Below, piece after piece: positions 19,817-63,905 of a DNA stretch of 64,000 bases. A program made the translations under genes and the position numbers. Each line of letters starts with the position of its first letter. The first letter of the stretch is position 1. The stretch is from Mya arenaria (taxonomy: Eukaryota > Mollusca > Bivalvia > Myida > Myidae), in the NCBI RefSeq assembly GCF_026914265.1, contig NC_069125.1, positions 75,641,546 to 75,705,545 on the forward strand, read 5' to 3'. The notes under the pieces were generated by a model. The model was not told the origin of the DNA. It searched no databases and worked only from the letters and a program-made list of their open reading frames with translations.

Positions 19817-21321
19817 CTAACCTTCAGTAGTCTTTTGCAAAAAATTTAAGTGTATTCTCTCTATTTCTTTTGATTTAGAATTTCCCCAAATTTCACAAGC
19901 ATAATTCAAAACAGACAAAACAAAAGCGTCAAACAATTGGCAAAACGTTTTTGGACTAATGTCATAATCTTTACATTTGCATAATAGAACATTCATAGCC
20001 TTAAGGGCTTTGCCAATTAAATGTTCTTGATTAAGTGCAAAATTACCCGTGTAGTTGAAAACAGTTCCAAGATAGTTAAAATCATTTACTACATCGATAA
20101 CGTTTCCATTATAGGTCCAACGCTCAGTGTCTAATAATCCACCACGTTTACGAAAAACCATAATTTTAGTTTTAGTGGTATTCACTTTGAGTCCCCATAT
20201 ATTACAATATTCGAATAATGTGTCTAAATGATCTTGCATTTCTTTAGGTGTTTTACCTACAATGGCCATATCATCTGCGAATAACAGTAACATCAATACT
20301 ATATCATCAAATTGTAAACCGGATTCAACATTGTTTTGTAAATACAATTCAAAGTCTTCAACAAAGACAGAAAATAAAATAGGGGACATGACCTCCTCTT
20401 GGCGTAAGACAACAGCATAATTAAAATACTCAGAATAATTAGAACATGATTTGACACAGGATTTAACTTGTTTGTACAATTCTAAGAATTTTGCCTTGGA
20501 TTCCACATTTATACATTTTAAGCCATAATGCATTTCTATATATGGAATCAAAACATTTCATCATATCGACAAATATAACATATAATCGTTTATTTTCATT
20601 TAAATAGTTTTGTACTAATGGCATAAGTATAAATATTGCATCAACCGTAGATCTGCCTTTGCGAAATCCGAATTGTGCATCCGAAATTATGTTATGTTCA
20701 TTGCAAAAAAGTTCAAGTCGTGTGTTAAGCACAGAGTTAAATAACTTAGACATAAAACTAACAAGGGTAATACCTCTATAATTGTTTACATCATAAACAT
20801 TGCCTTTTTTATGCAAAGGGATTATAATACCATCCATCCACTTATCCGGATAAATGTGCCAATAATAAATCTATACTTTCAATAAAATATTCATTAAACA
20901 AGCAATCACTGCCATATGCTTTTCCACTTTTCAGAGACTTAACAGCTTTTAAAATTTCATCTACAACGATAGGTTGATCAAGTTCTGGGAACGTTTCATT
21001 TTGTTTATTAAAATCATTATTTTCACAAAAATCTTCCGCTTCTTCGTTTGAACAATCAAACACAATACTGCCAATATTTTTAAAATAGTCTCGAAAGGAT
21101 TCTAACTCTATTTTATTAGAAACCGACTTATTCTTATTTTTAAAATATTTCCAAAAATCATTTGGTTTAGCTTTCTTCAAATTTTCTATTTCAGACATTT
21201 TGCGTACATAAAATGCATTTTTCTTTTTGCGTATAATATTCTTATATTGCATTTTACGTTCGCATAAATCTAACCTATTTACATTTGTTTTATCACAATT
21301 ATACAAGTTTAATGCATTCAA
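19817..21321 (-). pseudogene. LINE reverse transcriptase domain
   Basis: Successive pieces carry the RT blocks: LKSGKAYGSDCLFNEYF (block 1-2), IIIPLHKKGNVYDVNNYRGI (the P-x-x-KKG...YRGI block), FGFRKGRSTVDAI, VDMMKCFDSI, and LLFADDMAIVG with the catalytic Asp-Asp pair. 'RQEEVMSP' stands where RQG-x-x-SP is usual. The pieces lie in two frames joined by shifts near 20,840 and 20,470. Confidence 0.9.
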
Positions 21322-21342
21322 ATAAACATTACGAGAATTAAA

Positions 21343-22430
21343 TCATTCTTGATCAAACCAGTCAGTATTTTTCATATAACTCTCTGTCTCAAAACTAGGT
21401 TTATTGTCAAAATAAGTATGTTTTGAAAATAAAGGGTCTGCGACACTTCGAACAATTTCAGTGAATTTTTTTAATGAATCGTTTAATGACTGTTTGGTGC
21501 AGTTATCTGAATTAAATACAATATTATTAAATTCTGGTAATTTACCTATTATACCAGATCGAAATTGATCTTTATAAATATCATTCCATTTATACCGTAC
21601 TTCAGAAAAGCTAGCATTATTTATTGTCGGATTATTACAAATCAATGACAATTGTAACGGGGCATGGTCACTCCATTCATTAAATTTCCCAATAGTAAAA
21701 CCATTGATCATTGAAAAATGACGTTCATTACATAACAAATAGTCAATCACAGAAGTACCGTTACGAGACAAAAAAGTGAACTGATTTGTATCTCCAATGC
21801 GGCCATTAACAATACGTATACATGATGATTTACAAAGATCTAATAATTTAATACCATGACTATTGTGACTTTTGTCTACAGAGGCCCTGACCGGGGTCCT
21901 ATCCGGTTCATAATCAATGTCATCAACATACATATTACACTTATCGTGAATTACATAGTCGTTTTTACTACTTATTCTACTGTTAAAATCCCCACATAGA
22001 AACACTGAACCTAGGCTCTCATAAGCAAAAATGTCATTTTCAAGAGTATCAAACAAGTTAATATTATTAAATGTATTATAAGCTGGGGAATCCTCACACC
22101 AAATATACGAACCACACAAATATATATCTTCATTTGTATTAAAAAAACTTATGGTCCAACTTAAGCCAAATTAATGTATCATGGTGATTCTTAACAATCT
22201 GTATTCCATCTTTCAAATGTTCTTTATAAAGCAATACTATTCCACCACTACTTCTGCGCGAATTTCTGTTTTGAAATTTTCTATAGAAATTATGTGTAAT
22301 AAAACCGTTAAGATTTATTTTACTGCTAGAGTTCGTCCAAGAACAAATATTATGTTGAGCAACAATATTTACAAAATCAGCACAAGATTGTTTATCGTTT
22401 GTTAGTCCGTGTACATTCCACGACAGTACG
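21343..22430 (-). pseudogene. LINE endonuclease domain
   Basis: Begins LSVLSWNVHGLTN, then SSGGIVLLYKEHL, and later shows the metal-binding GDFNSR and the catalytic SDHAPL motif of the exonuclease-endonuclease-phosphatase fold used for target-primed reverse transcription. The frame slips near 22,145 in a run of T, separating the first ~95 residues from the rest (22,119-21,343). Confidence 0.85.
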
Positions 22431-32372: not shown

Positions 32373-33224
32373 TTATTCATTCTTGACTATCTGTCTTTTA
32401 TTAATTATGTTCCCGTTGGGTGAATCGGTACCACACGGCAACAGGGCGAGCCAGGCGATATCGACCGCTGCCTCTTCCGGGGACCGGGCTACCACTCCAC
32501 CGAGGCAGCCATTCTCGTCCAGGTGTGTCTCCATCTGCTCTGTCCGCGTCCAGCCCGGGCAGCCCGCGTTGACCAGGATGTTCCGCCGACAATCTGCTCG
32601 CAGGTCCCGCGCAATCACGTACACGAGCGCGTTCTGTAGCACGCTGACTGCCTCCAGTATTCGGTCCGGCCACCCGTATTCCGCCCACACATTTGACTTC
32701 ACAGCTGATAAATACTTGTCAGCAAGTTTATCCAACTCAAACATAGTCACTTTATTTAAGTCAATTTCTTTCCTTATCTTGTCACCGAGACTGCTTAGAA
32801 CACCTAGCTCACTAGAAACGACAATGACACGTGCATGTGGTCTGAGGAGCGGCAAAAAGTACCGCATGAGGCTCATAGTGCCCTTGAAATTCGTGTTGAC
32901 GGTGAGCTCCGCCTGGCGGTAGATGGAGAGGGGCGTGTCCTTGGGGAACACGGTGCCCGCGTTACTGACGAGCACGTCCACGCCGCGGTAGGTCTCCGTA
33001 ATAAAGTCAAGGAACATACGGATACTGGCCGACTGGGTGACATCCAGCTCGTGCCATATGGGCTTCAGGCCCTCCCGCGTCAGCTGTGCACATGCACGTC
33101 GGCCCCTCGCCGTGTCCTTGCCTGTCACGATCACGTCACCAGGGAACTGCTGGAGCAACAGCCTCGCTACCTGGTAACCTATTCCGCGGTTTGCACCAGT
33201 TACTATTGCAACCTTTTTCCCCAT
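32373..33224 (-). CDS. CBR1-like short-chain dehydrogenase, catalytic Tyr/Lys lost
   Basis: A single open frame of 283 residues, close to human carbonyl reductase 1 (277). It has the NADP(H) site TGANRGIG (residues 9-16), the NAG motif (88-90), the family stretch QAELTVNTNFKGT and the C-terminal NAGCPGWTRT, and the Ser pair at the active site (SSELG, 137-141). At the catalytic YxxxK the alignment to CBR1 is gap-free between GWP and ARxL, yet the protein reads GWPDRILEAVS: Leu190 for Tyr and Ser194 for Lys. It should bind NADPH but is unlikely to reduce carbonyls by the classical route. CBR1 is a cytosolic reductase of carbonyls and quinones. An acceptor-like ctatttag just upstream of the ATG (33,236-33,243) suggests a spliced 5' leader, so the gene need not be a retrocopy. 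The long open frames on the opposite strand are shadows. Confidence 0.88.
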   Translation of the reverse strand: MGKKVAIVTGANRGIGYQVARLLLQQFPGDVIVTGKDTARGRRACAQLTREGLKPIWHELDVTQSASIRMFLDFITETYRGVDVLVSNAGTVFPKDTPLSIYRQAELTVNTNFKGTMSLMRYFLPLLRPHARVIVVSSELGVLSSLGDKIRKEIDLNKVTMFELDKLADKYLSAVKSNVWAEYGWPDRILEAVSVLQNALVYVIARDLRADCRRNILVNAGCPGWTRTEQMETHLDENGCLGGVVARSPEEAAVDIAWLALLPCGTDSPNGNIINKRQIVKNE

Positions 33225-47015: not shown

Positions 47016-50000
47016 GCAAGTATTTCCTTTGACAGTTGATGATTTTGATTTTTAGGCTTTTAGAGGTCAACAACGGTAATATTGCTAAAATCTGCTTCAA
47101 ATGAATTTTAGTAATTATCTCTCTATGAAAGATGTTGACTACTGTTTACCCACTTCCGTTTTGACAGTTTATTCAAGTTGTTGAAATTATTATGAGTAAA
47201 TGGTCAACAATCCATTATTTTTTCATATCTGCTTATTTTCAAGAATTGCAACATGTCATGAGTTTTAAAACGCGTTTGTAAATAGCATTGCAACATGACT
47301 TTTTTTTAAATAATTTGACATGCAAAAACCTTACATTTCTGTGAATATACATACAGTATTTTGTGAGAATAAAAATTCAAGAATTATTCTAATATCTCAT
47401 TTCAAAGTGAAGATATAGCAATTTGTATGCACCCACCCTTCACCGCCATGAAAATGCTCTAACTGAAAAGTCACGAAATCCTGATCCCCAAGTTTTTATT
47501 TTCATTGTAAGGCATGTAGAACTGCCCAAAAGGCTTTATTTACTATATGCAAACATATAAACTGAATAAAACACAGCAAATGAACAAACTAAAATAAATA
47601 AACAGTTTCGTTACAAACTGAAACGAGTTGTACAATTGCAATTACAGTTTTAATTTATTACACTGCCATTTAATAATGTGATATTGATCAAACCAATTAT
47701 TATATTAATATTATATTATATATAATAATGATTGTCAATTTATGAGTGAATTCCTTCTTTTTGCTGTTGTCTCCTGTTAAATGTTTTATAAATACTAATT
47801 TGTGGTTGCTTATAAACATGATTCCCATTTGTAGGTTATAATCACATATAAACATCAACTCTGGATTTAAATAGTACATTTACATTACTTTAAGGCATAA
47901 AATGGAAATGGGAAACATGCTTATTAATTTTCCAAATAAGCTTATGTTTTTTGTGTTTAAAAAAAATCAAAATGAAGCCTTATTTGCATTCACTAAATGT
48001 GTTGCCTTACTGTATCAATTTATTTTCTACATTATGTAATCTGTGATTTATAATTCAAATAACATGACCCATGATTGGAATAAAATTTATCTTATCTTTT
48101 CTTATTACACAAAAACAACGTTTCTGTTAGAAAACTACTGATGTAACCTAAATCTGGCATTTTTCTCGGGCTTTATTTTATATAAACACTTCTTTATTAC
48201 ATACTGTAAACATATTTGAGAAGGAAACGGTATGAAACTGGGGACAAACACAAACTTTGTTAAAAAACATTGTTTATTTTACAATTATTCAAAGAATAGA
48301 CATAAAATGTATTCATTCTGAATGTTAACACCTATTTACACAGGGTGTACTTGCAGTTTGAAGCTGTCAGCAACTGTTTCATGTATTAATCATCAAGCAT
48401 CTGACTAAGTGAAAACGGTAGTTTCACTTTGCGGCAGCCATTTTGGATTTTTGTTTACATTTTGGCGAAGTCTATAAATGGTCTAAGAACGTTCATAGTC
48501 CATTTGTTTTCGTATCAAAAGTGATAAAAAACTATGAGAGATTCATCCCATGCTTAAAAGCAAACCAAATAATCCTTTGTACTTGCCTGAAAACATGAAA
48601 AAAACGTTTAATCAAATTTTCACTTTCGTTTTTCTTTTAGAAAAACCACGTTTTCAGTGAACTCTGACTGGTTTCCAGAATATTTCATCATCTAATTAAC
48701 TATAAATAGCCACATGGTTCTCCGCAAATGTTGATATATGTGTTTTTAAGGGTGTATAAAACCGGTACCAGTATTGGGTCGCCTTCCGTGAAAAATTAAT
48801 ATTCATGAGATTCATAAGGGGAGATTACTACAATTGACTTGGCATCGCTATAATGTAAAGTAAGTCTCAAAGGAAAAGATCACCTGGTGTGAGGCTCCAA
48901 CCTTTGCCAACCTTAGGGTTGACTTGTTGAATCACAAGCTCACCCGGTATGAGGCTCCAACCTTTGGCAACCTTAGGGTTGACTTGTTGAATCACAAGCT
49001 CACCCGGTGTAAGGCTCCAACTTTTGGCAACCTTAGGGTTGACTTGTTGAATCACATGCTGTCTTCTAGGTCCTTGCGTGCACTGGTTCTTATTCGCACA
49101 CACTAATGCCAAAGGTAATGTTTTACAACTTACAGTGTGCCAGGATATTAAGGCATGCCAAGGCAAAGTGTTTAGGGACAATTACAATGAAGTGTGACTC
49201 AGAGCCAATCAAGGGGTCATTTATCAATGTCTTTTAGTGATTTAATCAGCAAAATATGTAGTTTGAAAGGGAAGTTACTGTTGCTTGCTGTTCTGTGTTT
49301 ATTTGTGTACAAAGAAGTCACTTATGTTATGGCATATATATCTACAGGGGGAGAGGATTTAGATGCTCTGTGCAAGAATCTGTTTAAAGTGTTCAACTGT
49401 TGATGCAAGATCCCTCCCTTACCCATTTTATGACTGACCAACAACCCTTCAGAAATTCTGTTACTGTTTATGAGTTTTTACAATTGTTAAAATTGTTTTG
49501 TTTGCAGAGTTTCTTTGGTTTCGGCCAAAGTGCCGAAGTTGAAATCCACTTGGATGGCCAAGATACACGGAAAACTGCTGAAATCAAAACAGAGGATGGG
49601 AAAAAAGAAAGGCACTACTTATATTATGATGGTGAAACCGTCTCCGGAAAGGTTTGTTTCTCTGAACTGTAGCACCTGCTATCATAAGTTGTCATTAAGT
49701 AAAATACACATGCGCAATGATAATGAAATAAAAAAAATGTACTGCTCATAGACATCATGACATTTGTATGTACCGTAATACACCTTACTGGTTGAGAAGC
49801 AGTGTCCGACAGTTTTTACAAGTGTTTATTGATTTATTCATACATGTTAAAATTCCTACTAAGACAGGGCTTTTTCTATAGTACCCACGGGTCCGACTAT
49901 CGGACCCATTCCCAAAGCAAAATATAAGATATTTTTCCCAATCTTCAGAAAAAAATCCCAATCCAAAAAAAAAAAAAAAAAAATTTTTTTTTTTTTTTTT

Positions 50001-53000
50001 TTTTTTAGAAATTCTTTTTACCTGTACTGGTTCATTTTCAACATCCTAATAAATTATGTGATTGTAAGTTTTTTTGGTAATTGAACTGAGAAATCATTGA
50101 TTTTCATTACATTCAGACATATGAACTATTATATGTCATGATTTATTTCAATAGATATTTACACCCCAAGGATTGATATTTCAGCCATTGTGGGTCTTTT
50201 AAAGGGAAAATAAACTAATATTAAATCATCTCCTTATTCACAGGAGACTAGACAGCTTTTTCTTTTCACTGTAAAATTTCCCAATTTCCGCATTTTCACG
50301 ACGCAAAATTTCCCAAAATGTCTAGGGTCTTTTTCCCAAAATGGGTAGAAAAAGCCCTGTAAGATTGTTTACATTTTAGATAACTACAGCTCAAGCTGCT
50401 ATTGTCGATATATTTTTCACATGTATGACGTCACATATAGTGTATCTAATGGGGGCGCCAAGAGGGTACTTACACTGTTCTGATTAGCTGTTGACGAGAA
50501 GCAGTTTCCGACAAATCAAATACGCGGCAGATTTTAGGTGCCTATTGTGTGTTTTTTTAACCATTTATTCAATATACTAAATAGAAGACTATAATACGAG
50601 ATCTATTATTTAATTTTTCAGCATTTACCAAAAATTAAACATAAAAACTTACGCCAGTCAATCATCATTCTGGAAATCAGGCAGACACTAAATATCAATG
50701 ATATTTTGTTTCATTTCTAATAAGAACTTGTGTTTGTTATCATTTTAGTAAATGTGGGTGTAAAACTAGCATGACAACAGTGTTCACAAATATGTACACA
50801 ATGATCATCGTTTGTATAAGTCAATTAAGGACAACCTTGTAGCTATTCATTATAGATATGCAAATTAGGTTCACACGCATGCGCAATGCGCTGCGCGTGA
50901 CGATCCCCCACGTGCAAGTTTGTGTACAAATTGAAAAATAAACATTAAACATTAAATAATAATAAAAGTTATTTACGTGTCTCGGTAAAAACTTCAACTT
51001 TTGATTGCCTAGTAACCATATAATTGAATTGCAATACCTTCTTTATGAAGATAAAAAGAAAGTACGCGAAAAAGCGATTTGTCGGAAATTGCTTTCCGTC
51101 GGAAACTGCTTCTCAACCAGTAGAGTTCGGAAACTCTAAGAATTCAGACGCTCATAATTATTTTCAAAAAATAATTTATTTTGCGTACCTAATTTTCGGA
51201 CACCCAAAGGTCATCAATCATAACTTTCACAGTTACCGTTAACAAGTTTCACAGGCAGCGTTTATTGATCTTTATAATGTTTTTTTCCTGGCTAGATTAC
51301 CATACAGTATACACCACTACAACTTAATTGGTTACTAACCATCCTAAACGATTTATTGCCTGTAGAGAGAGGAAGTGTGATATATTTATTGGAGGATTAA
51401 AGAATCAACAAGGGCAGTCAGGGGATTAAGAAAACAAAGACATGACATGTTTGTACCACATTTATAGCCTGTATGAAGCAATAATCGTACAGTCCGCCCG
51501 GTTAGCTCAATCGGTAGAGCGTTGGACTCTGAATCGGACAACCCGGGTTTGATTCCCGGGCGGACCAGGTCACTTCTGTTGTGATTGGTTATGAAATCCT
51601 TTCTACGACCATTCGCACTGTACCACTGCCCCTGGCATGTACAGAAGTTGTCAGTTCCTTGCAGAGGTGAAGGCACCCAGTACTGGTTCTGCCCAGGATA
51701 GGTGTGTGGTGGTTGAACTGTCACTCTGGGACCCTTCAATGTGCTCACGCCGGGACCAGGAGTATAAACTACTAACACCACCACCATAATCGTACAGTTA
51801 TACTCATTGAAACCATCAATAGAACAATAAAAGTCAACACATTCAATGATACAGGTAACTATTTAACGAGATGAATTAAAGTTAGAAATGCAATACTGAG
51901 TTTACAATCGAAAACATCACGCAGACACATTAATTGCACATAACATTGTCCATGCTCTCCAAGAGATCTGCAGCCAATAGAAGATGTTGATTTATTTCAA
52001 TGCATGTGTAAATCGGTAAACTTAATTTTAATTAACTTGATGAAGGATTTACACTTAAAGGCGTAATAAATAACCATTGATAACTACGGAGAAATCAATA
52101 TGTGGTAAAACGCAATACATGAAGAAAGGGCAGGTTTTATTTTTATTTCCGACATAAATAAAATGTAAAAATGGTAATTTTCTTTAAATTCGGACAGCGA
52201 CAAAAAGAATCACTCTAAGGTGAATTACGGTATTCATTTTTCACAGGTTTTTAATATTAAAACATAATTAAACTAAAAGATTAAGAAACAGAAAAACTCT
52301 TTATTCGCAAATAGTCTCAAAAGCATTTAAATTACATGAAAACACTTGCAGTATTCATATCATAACTTGTTCAATACCAATTCCCTTTTTGAGTTACTTA
52401 CCAGTAGTGAGTAGTAAATTACTGAAATATTTCAATTCTCAGGTAAATGTGAACCTCAAGAAAGCAGGAAGTAAAATGGAGCACCAGGGCATTAAAATAG
52501 AGTTTATAGGACAAATAGGTAAGGCCATGTCATAATTACTGTTACAAAGTTTGAGATGCTATACCTATTGTAAAATATATTTATTTCAGATTGGTAGTAC
52601 ACTGAAGTCTTACAAATATGTACAAGTTGTATAATTGGACATTGAGCACTTTTACACTATTGAGCATAACTTAACAGAGGCATAGATGTTTGTGATGATA
52701 GTGTCTACTAACCTTTTCATCATAGGATTTATTCATTATATACAATATACATATACATATATAGTCATTCCTTGAAATTGAGTTTTTTTAACAAGCCCCA
52801 ATACTACGGTATATGTTCATGTCATGGCACGAATAATATCCAAAATATTTGCCTCATATAGTCACCAGAATTTAAGCAATTAAAACAAAAATTGTCACCA
52901 TTCTTTTCGTGCTTCTTAAGGTACTTGTATCTTTAAAACCTTTTTTGTTTTAAATATAATGATACTTTTTTGGTAATACACAAACGGAATAACGTAACAA

Positions 53001-56000
53001 TACACGCAGCACAATTTCATGTTATGATCAGCGCCATTAGCAGTTTGTTTTATGACAAACGGACCAATTGGAACAGTACTTTTATGCATAGCTGCAAGTA
53101 CATAATTTGTTTAAATGTATCTCCTGTGAAAAACCATGTGTTTGGTTCACCAATTTTCAGATATCAATTCATCGTCATAGTGGATTAGCAGCTGTCATGG
53201 TGGCGTCAGTCTATTGGTTATTTTGACCTGTTTATTGGAGTATTTGGGAATGTGTGAAGAACAAACAAAGTTTGTCACAATGTGTATTAAATTTTCTATG
53301 GACCGAATTTCTAAAAAATAAAAGAAATTTGGAGCAATTTTTAGCCAATTTCTGTTACTGAAATTGGTCTGGCATGGTCAAAATCAGCAAATTGGCAACA
53401 TGGTCAAAATCAGCAACATGGTCAAAATCAGCAAATTGGCAACATGGTCAAAATCAGCAAATTGGCAACATGGTCAAAATCAGCAACATGGTCAAAATCA
53501 GCAAATTGGCAACATGGTCAAAATCAGCAAATTGGCAACATGGTCAAAATCAGCAAATTGGCAACATGGTCAAAATCAGCAAATTGGCAACAAATTGGCA
53601 ACATGGTCAAAATCAGCAAATTGGCAACATGGTCAAAATCAGCAAATTGGCATTATGGTCAAAATCAGCAAGTTGGCAAATTTTAGTAGCCCTGGTTCAC
53701 GTTATTATTAAATTTTCTTGAACAAGCTTAAATACTTTATTTTCGTGTTATTGTGAATTTTTCTTGAACAGGCCAGAATACTATACATGTATGTTATTGT
53801 AGTATTAATTTCTTGATCATGCTCAAATATATACATGTATATAAAGTTAAACATATAACAAAACCAAAAAATGTTTACATGCCCAGGGTTGATTTGGGGA
53901 TTTGGGTTTGTTCTAATTCAGATGACTAGTCTTGTTTTATGGGACATAAAGTAGAAGCTAAAAACTGATGCAACAACCATGTGAAAATATAATTTAAAAA
54001 GCATAGTTTTGCATATAAGCATTTTACCAGTTTTTAGTGGCTTACATGAGTGGCTTTAGTGGCTTTCATGAATGAGATTAATGCTGCATTTTAGAACTGT
54101 ACTATGACCGAGGCAACCACCACGAGTTCACATCGTTAGTGAAGGAGTTGGCACGACCAGGAGAAATGAGTCAAAACACAAGCTTCAACTTTGAGTTCCA
54201 ACAAGTAGAAAAACCTTACGAATCATACACAGGTGCTAATGTTAGATTAAGGTAAGGTTTTCAAAAAACTATCCTTTAGTTTAAGCACTGTATGTGCTGT
54301 TGATATAAAGACAAGAAATAGTGAATACATCATTTGTACCGAGATGGAGGAACTTCATCAGGCAAGCAAAAAAGTCTATCCTGGCAACTTAAAATATAGC
54401 AAGCTGGATAAACTTTCTCCATCTCAGCATTAGACATTAATTGATTTATCAAGCTTCAAATGATTAAGCTTTCTCCACCAATAATCACTTGCAAGCAGAT
54501 CATAATATTTTCTATGAAGCATCTTAAATCCTTTTACTTTTTGTGCAGCTAACATTGCATGATAAGTATAAATTTCAACAGAATTAGATTACATAAATTC
54601 TTGAGCTTATCTGCCAACTGTAACAAAAACATTTTGCTAGCAAATATGTGCCAGATTTACAAAAAAGTTCATTGCTGCAGCTATTGTTTTTCACTTGTTT
54701 ATCTTTGTCATGAAATGACTTCCCAAGTGAAGCACAAGCCCTGAGCTCTTTTTACATGAAGATATATAATATCTTTATTCTATAATAGTTTTTAAATAAT
54801 GAATTAATAATAAATTAATGTAGAATTTTATTGTGTAACTCTTATATATCATATTTTATTTCCCCAGATATTTCCTGCGTGTGACTATAGTAAAGCGCCT
54901 AAGTGACTATGTAAAGGAGCAGGATATCATTGTTCACACACTGTCACAGTACCCTGATATGAATTCCAGCATCAAAATGGAAGTCGGCATAGAGGATTGT
55001 TTACATATAGAGTTTGAATATAATAAGTCAAAGTAAGAAAATATTTTCAATCTTCTTTAAACTTGTTAATGGATTTGCTTATAGTCTGGGCTGACCAGTT
55101 TATTTTCCAAGGTAATAACTTCTATTAAATTGCTCTTATGATACCATATTAAATTGCTCTTGACATATCATATTTATTGATGTATTTACATGCTCTGAAG
55201 ATATCATTTTTAATTCTCTTAAGATACCAAATTTAATTGCTTTTAAGATACCATATTTAATTGCTCTTAAGATACCACTTGAAGGACGTTATTGTTGGAA
55301 AGATATACTTTCTGCTAGTGCGGATAAAAATACGTTACATGGAGTTAGCGATTGTAAGACGAGAAGTGACTGGGGCAGGTATACCCAAGTACTACAGCTT
55401 TGAGTGTTGTATAAAGTTGCCACCAGTAGATTTGTTGTTGTGGTTGATAAAATTGTTCAATGTACCAAGGTCTTTATTCTAGTTTACAGCAAGATTTATA
55501 ATTTCATAGCTTTATTTTATATTCAGTTTGTTTGTGTTGTGAGATTAATGTGAGTTTCTTGATCATATGCCTTTTGTGTGATGTATGTTTTTATGCCCCC
55601 GAAGGTTGGCATATAAAAATTGCACCATCCGTTGTCTGTCCGTCCATGCATTTGACTCAATTTTTAGTGTCCGGACTGTAACTTTCTATTGTACAGCAGA
55701 TTCTAAAATAACTTGCCACTTGTGTTCGACATACCAAGACCATGTGTCACATGCAAGAACCATGACTTTACCCTAAGGTCAAGGTCACATGTGTTTTTTT
55801 ACTATGGAATGCTGCATATAAGGAAAAGAGTATATTTAGTCGTGTCTAGGCTGTATCTTTCTCTTGTACGGACAGGTTTTAAAATAACTTGCCACATATG
55901 TTTGACATATCAAGACAACGTATCTGTGCAAGACCCAAGTCCCTATTTCTTAGTCAAAGGTCACACTTGCAGTTTGTTCACAATGGAATGCTTCATATAA

Positions 56001-59000
56001 GGACATAGTAGACATATTACATATTACAGTGACCATGCATGTGTCTCATGTGGTGTTGCAAAACATTAATGAGAGGTAATTCATGTCTATAAATACCATA
56101 TCTTCATAAACATTCCTTTCTTTATCCACGCATTTCATTGATAATTTTTTCCTTTCTAAATTACCTTTAAATTAAACTTAAGTACCACTTCGGGGGCATT
56201 TGTTACTTACAGTGACATCTCTTGTTTCAGCCATCATCTAGTCTCCAAGGCCATACATAAGCTGTTGCATGGGTTATATGCGTAGTGATTGCTTACTTGC
56301 ACCCAGCAAACACCACAAATAAGAGTTCTGCTCATGCCTTGGGTTCATTCTGTCTAAAACACAAGTGTGACAGTATGCAGTTTCAAAATAAAATTGTGAA
56401 AATTGTTAAATAATGGATTTACTACCATTTAGTTACCAGGTGTTTCTTGACTTTCATTGTAAAAAGCATTATTGCATACCAAGCTACAGAACTCAGATTT
56501 GTGATGATATTAGAATTGTTTACGTTGCCTTGATTGATACTGTACTTGTTGTGGCAGGTACCACTTAAAGGATGTGATAGTGGGCAAGATCTATTTCCTT
56601 CTTGTGCGCATCAAAATAAAACATATGGAGATACAGATTATCAAGAGGGAAAGCACCGGCACAGGTGAATGTCTAGTTCTAGTTGTATGCATTTTGTGAT
56701 ATGTTGAAAAAGTCATGCGTTCTATACAAACTATATGCTAATGAAGTCACTTTAATATCATTTACTGCTTTTCTGACTTTCCATTATCACGAAATATATA
56801 TTCTGTTATAGATATGACCGGTACATGCAGTATGCTTTACTTTTTCTATCGTGGTAGTTCTATTGTGGTAGTTGCATAAGCATAATATTTTCACAAATAT
56901 TTTTAAGAAATCTGTTACTGTAAAACATTGATTTTTATCTGCTATTGATATGTCAGTTGATGTTTATTGATAGAATTAATTTTTCTTGGTAAAATTTGAA
57001 AATATTGAATTTTTAGTTAATTAAGCCAAATAAAAAAATAGGTCTGTTTCAGGTTACCCGACCGACCCTATTTTTTCCCGCCGACCCTAACCTATTTTTC
57101 CCTGAAAAAAATGTGATTTGGGTACGAAAAGCATTTGTTACGAAATGTATGTACGTAAAGTTGACAATATTAGAGTTGGATTTCTGAATGTATTTACCGT
57201 ACTTCACCTTAGAGTTCGGACATCTTAAAATAATTAATTTTTCGCTCTACGAATTCATAGAAATTTTTACATTTTATTTACATGTATGGTAAACCTGCCT
57301 TTTTTCTTCATGTCTGCATTTTACCACTTATTAATTTATCCGTAGTTATCAATGGTTATTACGCCTATAAGTCACGGTAGCTCCTTCATCAAGATAATTA
57401 AAATCCCATTCAACACCATTTTATACATGCATTGAAATGAATAAACACCTTTTATCGGCTTCAGATCAAACAGTCACATTGTGTGACGTCACATAACTCA
57501 GTTATACCCACGAGAATCTCATGGAGAGCATGGATATTGTTATGCAGGATTAATGTGTCTTGGTGGTGTTTTTTATTGTAACTTAAGTATTGCATTTATA
57601 ACTTTAATTCATCACATTTAATAGTTACCTGTATCATTGAATGTGTTGACTTTATTGTTTTATTGATGTTTCAATGAGTATTACTGTACGATTATTGCTT
57701 CATAAAGTCTATATTAAAAGTGTGATACAAGTTTCAAAGTTTATTGGCGGATCGTTTTACAAACATGTCATGTCTGTGTTTTCTTAATCTCTGCATTGCC
57801 CTTGTTGTTTCTTTAATCCTCCATTAAATATATCACTCATCCTTTTCACCAGGCAATAAATCGTTTAGGATGGGTAGTAACCAACTAACTTATCACAGTG
57901 ATATATAGGGTTAGGTAATCTAGCCAGGCATTGTAACGATAAAGATCAATAATTTTTGTCTGTGAGACTTAGTAACTGTAAAAGTTCAGTCGATGTCCTT
58001 TGGGTGTCCGAAAATTAGGTACCTAAAATAAATTATTTTTGAAAATAATAATGGATGTCCGAATTTTATAGATTGTCCGAACTCTTAAGGTGAATTACGT
58101 TTGTGCTTGTGTGGCAGGTATATTTCAATTCTTGAACTATATTTTCTAGTCAGATACAAATGTGTCAGATACTGACTTTCGGATTGATATGTCAGACTTA
58201 AGTGTGCAATTTTGGCAATAAAACCTGCATGTTACTTGTTCTTCAAACCTGAACCCCCAGGTCCTCTTGACAGCATTGAGGTTTCCTTGGCTGATGACTA
58301 ATATGGTAAATTTGCTGTCCCACTCTTCATGTAATTGTGTTACAGGGAGGTTAGTATTCTACAGAGGGTGATTGAAAGCAAACGGGTGCATAAAGAAAAG
58401 TAAAACCGTTCCTGGAAAGTCTTAAATAATAGCAGAGTGGTGTACCATAACTTAGTTAAAATCCAACCATCATTGTCAAAGTATTTAACCAGACAAATAA
58501 AGAATGTTTCCTTTGAAGCATGTAACATGTTTAAAAACTACTGATAAACCTGAAAATTGATGACTTTTATTTTTGTTACTTTCTGAGTCAACAGTTACTA
58601 AAATCGATATATCAAAAAAAAAAAAATATATATATATATATATTCCGACCTACCTACCCTATTTTTTTTGGCAGTGTTACCTGAAACACACCTATTTTTT
58701 TATTTGGCCTTACAAGTGAAACATATTTTATGCTTCTGAATTAGAACCTTTTGCTGCTTCCATTCTGATGGCATGAAATTATTATAATATGATAAATATA
58801 GATCATATAGATAAATATGAACTAAAATCTATATATGTAAATCTATATACAGGTGTGCCTTCAGATTTAAGATATGATGGGTTTTGACTGCGAGAATATC
58901 TTGTTTTGCAGGTCCCAACACGTTTAATGAGAATGAGACGATAGCAAAGTATGAGATCATGGATGGAGCCCCAGTGAGAGGTCAGTGTTCACAGGAAATG

Positions 59001-59642
59001 GGAAATACCGCCTTGAAAACATCGCCTTGCCATTCAAACAGAAATCTCCTAAAGACATCTTATGATATAGAATTGTATTTGTCACATTTGAAATATTGTA
59101 CCTTTAACTTGAAATGCTAATTAAATGTATTGGTTTTATTAGGAGAGTCAATACCAATCCGGTTGTTCCTGAGTGGGTATGAGTTGACGCCGACGATGCG
59201 TGACATCAACAAGAAGTTCTCTGTACGTTACTACCTGAACCTGGTCCTTGTAGATGAGGAGGAACGCCGATACTTCAAACAGCAGGTAAATGGGTTAGAC
59301 AGCACTTTAATATAAGAATGCTTACTGTTATTGATTGTTGCCTGAATGAAAAATTGTACTGCAAAGTCATAATGTATGGTAAAGACACCTTGTACAATAA
59401 AAATAAAGGATTGATGAAGGGAAATGGCAGAAGAGTATTTATAGCAGTTTAAGATAATAAGATGTTATGTTTTTTTACAGGAGATCACTATTTTCCGAAA
59501 AGCGGATAAGGTTCGTAAACCAATGACCCAAGGTCACCAGACCCACCGGTCCATGATGCAGCATGCCAGCAATCCTGCAAGGGAGCCTGTTGAAACTCCC
59601 GACCAGGAGAAGAACTCGAGCGACAAGGAGGAGACAGAATGA
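47013..59642 (+). CDS. VPS26B: Retromer subunit VPS26 (B-type), complete, with alternative exon 6
   Basis: Exons: 47013-47015 (proposed lone ATG), 49508-49651, 52443-52518, 54095-54251, 54868-55032, 6a 55272-55378 or 6b 56558-56664, 58912-58980, 59143-59285, 59481-59642; 1,026 nt, 341 residues with one exon 6, all in phase. Protein: SFFGFGQSAEVEIHLDG, EHQGIKIEFIGQI, ELYYDRGNHHEF, VEKPYESYTGANVRLRYFL, SIKMEVGIEDCLHIEFEYNK, IAKYEIMDGAPVRGESIPIR, KKFSVRYYLNLVLVDEEERR. This is nearly collinear with human VPS26B (336) and closer to it than to VPS26A. VPS26 is the arrestin-fold subunit that joins VPS35 and helps select cargo for endosome-to-Golgi/plasma-membrane recycling. The Ser/Glu-rich tail (KNSSDKEETE) is divergent, as usual. 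Introns 2, 3 and 6 are loaded with repeats. Confidence 0.95.
48878..49060. repeat. 60-bp tandem repeat, three units
   Basis: Three near-identical units containing GGTGTGAGGCTCCAACCTTT and GGTTGACTTGTTGAATCACA in VPS26 intron 1. The unit is divisible by three, so both strands stay open; not a gene. Confidence 0.9.
49788..51120. mobile_element. Inner TA-duplicating TIR element
   Basis: Ends CTGGTTGAGAAGCAGTGTCC and GGAAACTGCTTCTCAACCAG are inverted and flanked by TA (49,786-49,787 and 51,121-51,122). It is inserted inside the left terminal repeat of the larger element. A partial internal copy of the end (gagaagcagtttccgaca) occurs at about 50,498. It carries a further insertion, 49,865-50,359. 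Confidence 0.85.
49865..50359. mobile_element. Innermost hAT-like element, 5-bp target duplication
   Basis: Ends CAGGGCTTTTTCTATAG and GGGTAGAAAAAGCCCTG, flanked by TAAGA (49,860-49,864 and 50,360-50,364). Contains a poly(A)-poly(T) palindrome at about 49,964-50,006. 495 bp, non-coding. Confidence 0.85.
51494..51785 (+). mobile_element. tRNA-headed SINE 2 with 13-bp target duplication
   Basis: Head: A-box-like TTAGCTCAATCGGTAGAGCG, anticodon-loop-like CTCTGAA, B-box GGTTTGATTCC and a GTCCGCC/GGCGGAC pairing of the ends. Body contains CACCCAGTACTGGTTCTGCC, the block shared with SINE 1. Tail is (CCA)n-like. Perfect duplications ATAATCGTACAGT flank it (51,481-51,493 and 51,786-51,798). The related element at 57,183-58,100 has the undivided site. 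A tRNA scanner may call the head a tRNA; it is a SINE. Confidence 0.93.
53370..53690. repeat. 26/18-bp minisatellite in VPS26 intron 3
   Basis: Units AACATGGTCAAAATCAGC with or without AAATTGGC, about 13 in all. All three plus frames are open, giving QNQQIGNMVK-type polypeptides that are artefacts. Confidence 0.93.
55125..55275 (+). repeat. Tandem repeat carrying exon 6a acceptor copies
   Basis: About five degenerate ~30-bp units of 'atttaattgctcttaagatacca'. The last unit supplies the acceptor and first bases of exon 6a (cttaag|atacca), so decoy acceptors stand upstream of the real one. Confidence 0.75.
55272..55378 (+). CDS. VPS26B: VPS26 alternative exon 6a
   Basis: 107 nt, acceptor cttaag|ATACC, donor GCAG|GTATAC, entering with two leftover nucleotides of a Lys codon and leaving one, exactly as exon 6b. 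It encodes the same first 20 residues after the Lys as 6b (YHLKDV...RIKI), then RYMELAIVRREVTGA instead of KHMEIQIIKRESTGT. Including both 6a and 6b would shift the frame, so they should be mutually exclusive. Protein position about 182-218, at the start of the C-terminal arrestin half. The polypyrimidine tract is weak. Without splicing the frame runs on 34 codons to a stop. Confidence 0.8.
55593..56199. mobile_element. MITE between exons 6a and 6b
   Basis: Ends ATGCCCCCGAAG and CTTCGGGGGCAT are inverted. The interior has 'ccgttgtctgtccgtccatg' and repeats of 'aaaataacttgccac...gacatacaagac'. Non-coding; target duplication unclear (T-rich flank). Confidence 0.75.
56558..56664 (+). CDS. VPS26B: VPS26 exon 6b (canonical form)
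   Basis: 107 nt, acceptor gtggcag|GTACC, donor ACAG|GTGAAT. KHMEIQIIKRESTGT is almost the human VPS26B sequence (KHMEIDIIKRETTGT), so this is the likely default exon, and 6a is the derived or specialised one. Confidence 0.9.
57025..58708. mobile_element. TIR element hosting copy 2 in VPS26 intron 6
   Basis: Inverted ends CCAAATAAAAAAATAGGTSTG followed by TTTCAGGTWAC, about 35 bp alike. The outer copy 2 element (57,183-58,100) is inserted inside. Target duplication not resolved. Confidence 0.7.
57183..58100. mobile_element. TA-duplicating TIR element, copy 2 (inverted)
   Basis: Starts TA|CCGTACTTCACCTTAGAG and ends CTTAAGGTGAATTACG. It is the reverse orientation of the element at 49,773-52,230 and has no SINE: its sequence reads straight through ATAATCGTACAGT (minus strand, near 57,690), marking the pre-insertion site. 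Confidence 0.8.
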
Positions 59643-61881: not shown

Positions 61882-62665
61882 GTAGCTTTGGTGTAGTTCC
61901 CTCCTGACCATGCTGTAGTTTCCTCCTGACTATGCTGTAGTTTCCTCCTGACTATGCTGTAGTTTCCTCCTGACTATGCTGTAGTTCCCTCCTGACTATG
62001 CTGTAGTTCCCTCCTGACTATGCTGTAGTTCCCTCCTGACCATGCTGTAGTTCCCTCCTGACTATGCTGTAGTTCCCTCCTGACTATGCTGTAGTTCCCT
62101 CCTGACTATGCTGTAGTTCCCTCCTGACCATGCTGTAGTTCCCTCCTGACCATGCTGTAGTTCCCTCCTGACTATGCTGTAGTTCCCTCCTGACCATGCT
62201 GTAGTTCCCTCCTGACTATGCTGTAGTTCCCTCCTGACCATGCTGTAGTTCCCTCCTGACCATGCTGTAGTTCCCTCCTGACTATGCTGTAGTTCCCTCC
62301 TGACTATGCTGTAGTTCCCTCCTGACTATGCTGTAGTTCCCTCCTGACTATGCTGTAGTTCCCTCCTGACTATGCTGTAGTTCCCTCCTGACCATGCTGT
62401 AGTTCCCTCCTGACTATGCTGTAGTTCCCTCCTGACCATGCTGTAGTTCCCTCCTGACTATGCTGTAGTTCCCTCCTGACCATGCTGTAGTTTCCTCCTG
62501 ACTATGCTGTAGTTCCCTCCTGACTATGCTGTAGTTCCCCCCTGACTATGCTGTAGTTCCCTCCTGACCATGCTGTAGTTCCCTCCTGACTATGCTGTAG
62601 TTCCCTCCTGACTATGCTGTAGTTCCCTCCTGACTATGCTGTAGTTCCCTCCTGACCGTGCAAGT
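61882..62665. repeat. 22-bp minisatellite, about 35 units
   Basis: Head-to-tail GTAGTTCCCTCCTGACTATGCT units, highly uniform apart from a TATG/CATG variant and an occasional TTTCC. Downstream of VPS26. Confidence 0.95.
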
Positions 62666-63244: not shown

Positions 63245-63905
63245 TGAGTGGTTCAAGGAATTGTGATATACATAGTACTTGGACTGTGGTTCAAGGTATT
63301 GTGATAATCTTGGTCAGTGGTTCAAGTAATTGAGATATACATAGAACTTGGACTGTGGTTCAAGGTATTGTGCTAATCTTGGTCAGTGGTTCAAGGTATT
63401 GTGATATACATAGTACTTGGTGTGTGGTTCAAGGTATTGTGATAATCTTCATCAGTGGTTCAAGGTATTGTGATATACACAGTACTTGGACTGTGGCTCA
63501 AGGTATTGTGATAATCTTGATCAGTGGTTCAAGGAATTGAGATATACATAGTACTTGGACTGTGGCTCAAGGTATTGTGATAATCTTGATCAGTGGTTCA
63601 AGGTATTGTGATATACACAGTACTTGGACTGTGGATCAAGGTATTGTGATAATCTTGGTCAGTGGTTCAAGGTATTATGGTATACATTGTACTTGGTCTG
63701 TGGTTCAAGGTATTGTGATAATCTTGGTCAGTGGCTCAAGGTAGTGTGGTATACATTGTACTTGGTCTGTGGTTCACGATATTTTGATAATGTTGGTCAG
63801 TGGGTCAATGTATTGTGAAATACTTGGTCAGTGGTTCCAGGTATTGTGAGATACTTTGTCAAATACTTGGTCAGTGGTTCCAGGTATTGTGAGATATTTT
63901 TAGAC
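63245..63905. repeat. ~69-bp higher-order minisatellite
   Basis: Units of about 69 bp made of two ~34-bp halves, both starting GTGGTTCAAGGTATTGTGAT; one half ends ATACATAGTACTTGGACT, the other AATCTTGGTCA. The near-23-codon period keeps frames open; not coding. Confidence 0.9.

Follow-up and report, generated by a model that had tools for sequence, protein, structure and literature searches.

Two old duplicated exons, probably mutually exclusive, in the VPS26 gene of Mya arenaria

Introduction

VPS26 is a core part of the endosome-recycling coat known as retromer, and vertebrates vary this arrestin subunit by gene duplication. A stretch of 64,000 nt from the bivalve Mya arenaria (the window, C4:75641546-75705545 of an 18-contig assembly of 1.216 Gb) raises the question of whether a single VPS26 gene could provide two versions of the subunit by splicing instead. 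The preliminary description of this window proposed that two neighbouring homologous exons, here called 6a and 6b, are used in a mutually exclusive manner and so give one gene two VPS26 variants, with 6a as the VPS26A-like copy.

Published work, as far as the available portions of each source extend, sets the background for this proposal. In many cases, similar exons that lie side by side are not used in a mutually exclusive way (PMC5740500), human events of this kind are mostly ancient and involve mostly conservative substitutions (PMC9741552), and in every Manila clam tissue studied, mutually exclusive exons and retained introns were the least frequent classes of splicing event (PMC9803972). 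The main texts of PMC5740500 and PMC9741552 do not mention VPS26, and that of the Manila clam study (PMC9803972) mentions neither VPS26 nor retromer. In the few papers examined on VPS26 and retromer splicing, exon duplication and bivalves, drawn mainly from outside subscription journals, we found no report of a mutually exclusive VPS26 exon pair.

Structure and copy number of the VPS26 gene

The VPS26 gene lies on the plus strand and spans at least positions 49508 to 59642 of the window. Its exons were placed by tblastn, with a human VPS26B sequence as the query, and their borders and open frame were then checked. Exon 2, which encodes SFFGFGQS..., is found at 49508-49651, followed by exon 3 (52443-52518), exon 4 (54095-54251) and exon 5 (54868-55032), the common exon upstream of the pair. 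Exon 6a occupies 55272-55378 and exon 6b 56558-56664. Downstream of the pair lie the common exon 7 (58912-58980), exon 8 (59143-59285) and exon 9 (59481-59642), which carries the stop codon and the C-terminal tail common to both predicted isoforms. The gene model begins at exon 2 (49508); no exon 1, which would carry the start codon, was found. On translation, exons 2-9 spliced together give an open frame of 340 residues and a stop with either exon 6. In both predicted isoforms the Pfam Vps26 family (PF03643) is covered over its full length (1-275 of 275), with a score of 461.5 bits when 6a is used vs 464.6 with 6b, a cost of 3.1 bits for the 6a swap.

A Pfam Vps26 search of the whole genome returned eight matches, seven within this gene and a lone one outside it, in the stretch C5:7852780-7855917. 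The latter resembles one exon of VPS26C, and we take it to be a piece of that gene, which encodes a retriever subunit. Since this sole other match is read as VPS26C, the animal appears to have one VPS26A/B-type gene, as far as the search reaches; no second gene of this type was found in searches of the 1.216 Gb assembly. Beyond this genome, no VPS26 relative was present among 12 pattern stretches in viral contigs or among 57 in prokaryote genome contigs.

Layout and reading frame of the exon pair

Exons 6a and 6b are each 107 nt long, have GT-AG borders and share both phases, starting after the AA of a lysine codon and ending with the first base of a glycine codon; their coordinates, lengths, phases and splice dinucleotides proved exact. 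With the junction codon included, 6a encodes KYHLKDVIVGKIYFLLVRIKIRYMELAIVRREVTGA and 6b encodes KYHLKDVIVGKIYFLLVRIKIKHMEIQIIKRESTGT, and 73 of the 107 nt are identical between the two. As an adjoining internal exon that is homologous to 6b, similar in length and in the same frame, 6a has the form of a tandem-duplicated exon. Each copy occurs once in the assembly, and 6a contains no stop or frameshift.

The two products differ unevenly along the exon, as had been pointed out. Over the first 20 whole codons the copies specify the same residues despite 13 silent differences, and the codon that spans the exon 5 border adds a fourteenth; after these 21 identical residues, 8 of the last 15 differ. 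The replacements are mostly conservative: five of the eight are of the K/R, H/Y, I/L or I/V type, with BLOSUM62 values of 2 or more, and at the other three positions 6b has Q, S and T where 6a has A, V and A.

Translation also agrees with the proposal that the copies are incompatible in one mRNA. Joining 6a to 6b breaks the frame and produces ...TGAGTT-stop, the stop being the fourth codon past the 6a-6b junction, so that combined inclusion, by translation, leaves no functional product. Omission of both copies yields ...KSQHV-stop.

Selection and age of the pair

Among the 28 codons that encode the same residue in 6a and 6b, 17 differ silently, compared with 16.6 expected at saturation, the latter being the number for random pairs of codons sampled according to the codon usage of the gene itself. 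The silent sites are therefore saturated, which rules out gene conversion as the source of the protein identity. The Nei-Gojobori method gives 0.94 silent and 0.14 replacement differences per site over the whole exon; the corresponding values are 1.01 and 0 for codons 0-20, and 0.83 and 0.34 for the last 15 codons. Because dS at such values cannot be corrected for multiple hits, we call the duplication old without assigning it a date.

Neutral change would have left a different pattern. In simulations that introduced 34 random substitutions (100,000 runs from each exon, 200,000 in total), not one run ended with 8 or fewer changed residues, the lowest values being 11 and 12, and none kept the first 21 residues identical. 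Silent saturation together with the failure of all 200,000 simulations to reach the observed conservation upholds the earlier suggestion that both copies have long been under selection, and for 6a in particular it indicates long selection as coding sequence.

Which copy is canonical

The divergent tails allow the two copies to be ranked. In its last 15 residues, 6b is identical to VPS26B at 13 positions, to VPS26A at 9 and to Chaetomium VPS26 at 10 of 14, and the corresponding counts for 6a are 7, 6 and 9 of 14; VPS26A and VPS26B themselves share 8 identical residues in this stretch. Because of these counts, 6b is best regarded as the ordinary copy and 6a as the derived one: on tail identity, 6b is the canonical, VPS26B-like exon, and 6a has no special kinship with VPS26A.

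The VPS26A-like character once ascribed to 6a, based on its MEL motif, has to be abandoned. MEL is also present in Chaetomium VPS26, the tail identity of 6a is 6/15 to VPS26A vs 7/15 to VPS26B, and its tail scores tie in BLOSUM62 (44 against each). Among solved structures, the best match of 6a is, by a small margin, Chaetomium VPS26 (52.2 bits, with VPS26B at 51.8 and VPS26A at 50.4). A special fungal kinship of 6a is unsupported, as 6b shares more positions with the Chaetomium tail (10 of 14) than 6a does (9 of 14).

The 6a acceptor array and splice-site strength

Immediately before 6a, on the plus strand, Tandem Repeats Finder reports a 24-nt direct tandem array at 55123-55277, which falls into two runs, one at 55123-55174 (2.2 copies) and one at 55183-55277 (4.0 copies). 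The unit, TATTTAATTGCTCTTAAGATACCA, combines the 3' end of the intron with ATACCA, the six bases that open exon 6a. The array ends six bases into the exon, and its last unit is the 6a acceptor itself. Because the unit joins intron end to exon start, the upstream units are copies of the 6a acceptor, and the AAG/ATACC border recurs in those lying 24 and 48 nt upstream.

The 19-nt core of the array, with at most one mismatch allowed, occurs four times in the assembly, three of them at this locus. When up to two mismatches are allowed the count is 108, vs 56 for a backward control, and loosely similar single copies of the core exist elsewhere in the assembly. The 281-nt array region has itself as its sole match in the assembly, in a search that skips simple repeats. 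The array has therefore most likely expanded locally out of the 6a acceptor, and the acceptor would then predate the array.

Splice sites were scored with approximate weights that had not been adjusted to this animal. On these weights, the 6a donor (CAG/GTATAC) scores 0.51, the lowest of the eight donors examined, vs 4.64 for the 6b donor; 23 of 259 regional GTs outscore the former and one the latter. The 6a acceptor, at -2.14, is the second lowest of nine, with 6b at 5.09 and exon 4 lowest at -2.71, and it is outscored by 54 of 181 regional AGs, compared with four for the 6b acceptor. The array and the weak donor, neither of which the preliminary description mentions, bear directly on the use of 6a. 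Exon 6a is probably either a minor or regulated copy, or a copy that is losing its use.

The second of these possibilities, that 6a was formerly a working alternative exon and has recently lost its use here through array expansion and a weakened donor, its frame being undecayed so far, is in our judgement unlikely. It would explain why the intron directly before the 6a acceptor is filled with 24-nt units that supply competing AGs, why the 6a donor scores lowest in the gene on the approximate weights, and why changed residues are concentrated in the last 15 codons of 6a. Yet 6a has kept its AG and its phase where the array ends, the acceptor of exon 4 scores lower than that of 6a (-2.71 vs -2.14 on the same approximate weights), and 6a has acquired neither stop nor frameshift.

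The array acceptors would also serve a second alternative, in which 6a is mainly a poison exon that leads to a stop, nonsense-mediated decay and less VPS26, either when joined to 6b or via the array. If the two in-frame acceptors 24 and 48 nt upstream were used, translation would stop at the fifth codon, with the junction codon included in the count, and the combination of 6a and 6b reaches its stop at the fourth codon past the junction. Selection on the encoded residues would be superfluous in a pure poison exon, whereas the two copies agree in all of their first 21 residues at silent saturation, and we regard this reading as quite improbable.

Still harder to accept is a role for 6a as an alternative last exon, with translation continuing into the intron and ending the protein early. 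The frame does stay open for 34 residues beyond 6a, and the 6a-6b intron holds AATAAA or ATTAAA at 56171 and 56387 only; but 6a is followed by these hexamers only after ~790 and 1010 nt, and it retains a GT that corresponds in position and phase to that of 6b, so we give the idea very little weight. That 6a and 6b resemble each other by chance, through an assembly error or because one is a very recent duplicate is hardly credible, given saturated silent sites, a conserved protein and the single occurrence of each copy in the assembly.

Introns and the mechanism of exclusion

The intron between 6a and 6b is 1179 nt long (55379-56557) and so not too short to splice. For pairing of the docking/selector type, three intron pairs showed no excess over shuffled sequence in a coarse test on 450-nt pieces, which could miss short sites; the best duplex energies were equalled or beaten by 9/40, 20/40 and 2/9 shuffles, the last being a small sample. 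The 6a donor is no U12 site, with four of nine positions mismatched to the U12 consensus, and the best matches to a U12 branch before 6a, 6b and exon 7 have 3, 3 and 4 mismatches of 8, respectively. AG-free zones of 22 nt before 6a and 42 nt before 6b give no sign of a distant branch point. A U12 or distant-branch-point mechanism was rejected in the absence of a U12 signature and of a long AG-free zone. What remains is exclusion by reading frame combined with ordinary regulated competition between splice sites.

A model for the exon pair

We consider it likely that 6a and 6b form an old mutually exclusive exon pair, with 6b as the default and 6a as a minor or regulated copy. Of the original proposal, the part that stands is the old tandem duplication, the purifying selection and the layout suited to exclusive use, and the part that does not is the analogy of 6a with VPS26A. 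In our model, one internal VPS26 exon was tandemly duplicated long ago and each mature mRNA would contain 6a or 6b. Exclusivity would be enforced at least by the frame, as each copy is 107 nt long and both or neither soon lead to a stop; mRNA with both or neither should be degraded. The choice of copy would probably be set by splice-site strength, because 6a scores as having the weaker sites on the approximate weights, together with trans-acting factors.

By prediction from its sequence, the gene can probably make two slightly different VPS26 proteins. Use of 6a would replace eight out of 15 consecutive residues in the C-terminal arrestin subdomain. This stretch presumably corresponds to about residues 205-219 of human VPS26A, and the VPS35-binding loop, which we take to lie at about residues 235-246, would follow shortly after it. 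The 15 variable residues are not named in the available passages of the literature on retromer structure. The effect on the protein would probably be a mild tuning of contact with VPS35, membrane or cargo, not a new function. A stronger version, in which a regulated switch gives two functionally distinct retromers from one VPS26 and the acceptor array acts as a tunable brake on 6a, seems doubtful to us.

The pair can be set against several known systems. In the portions of PMC5740500 and PMC9741552 available, human mutually exclusive tandem-duplicated exons resemble 6a and 6b in being adjacent homologues of the same length and phase that shift the frame if both are used, and they are likewise old, with mostly conservative substitutions; the VPS26 pair is a prediction from sequence. 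The likeness to vertebrate VPS26A and VPS26B, to which the preliminary description had appealed, holds in that there would again be two versions of the retromer arrestin subunit per animal, although the vertebrate paralogues are separate genes, whereas 6a and 6b differ as one internal exon. The parallel is loose because vertebrate VPS26A and VPS26B differ predominantly in their C-terminal sequences, according to the part of PMC12260524 available, whereas the 6a and 6b isoforms share the C-terminal exon. The same source, to the same extent, describes splicing that varies another retromer core subunit, VPS29, whose isoforms VPS29A, B and C differ by added N-terminal sequence without a swap of duplicated exons.

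If splice-based, the arrangement would represent an independent solution to varying the retromer arrestin, in an animal with one VPS26A/B-type gene, and would mark the 15 variable residues in the C-terminal subdomain as a point at which retromer is open to tuning. The acceptor array would be a natural case of splice-site duplication beside a constrained exon.

Other features of the window

The introns of the gene hold further repeats. In the intron between exons 3 and 4, a 26-nt tandem repeat of ~10 copies lies at 53413-53679. Within the 6a-6b intron, a 607-nt stretch on the plus strand (55593-56199) has 12-nt inverted repeats (ATGCCCCCGAAG) at its ends; roughly the first 416 nt are part of a dispersed repeat family, other copies matching mostly that part, and the 40 candidates scored out of 2582 gave at least 137 matches, several of them in runs ~181 nt apart. 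The intron between 6b and exon 7 contains 33-nt inverted arms, 94% complementary and 1618 nt apart, at 57025-58708, possibly an inserted element.

Beyond the stop codon of VPS26, a 22-nt tandem repeat (34.8 copies, 96% match) begins after ~2.2 kb at 61892-62656, and a 69-nt tandem repeat (8.4 copies, 91% match) occupies 63247-63823. On the minus strand, three open frames at 19817-22119 look like pieces of a non-LTR retrotransposon, with endonuclease-like and reverse-transcriptase-like motifs. Also on the minus strand, an uninterrupted open frame of 283 aa at 32373-33224 carries a GANRGIG motif and resembles a short-chain dehydrogenase/carbonyl reductase.
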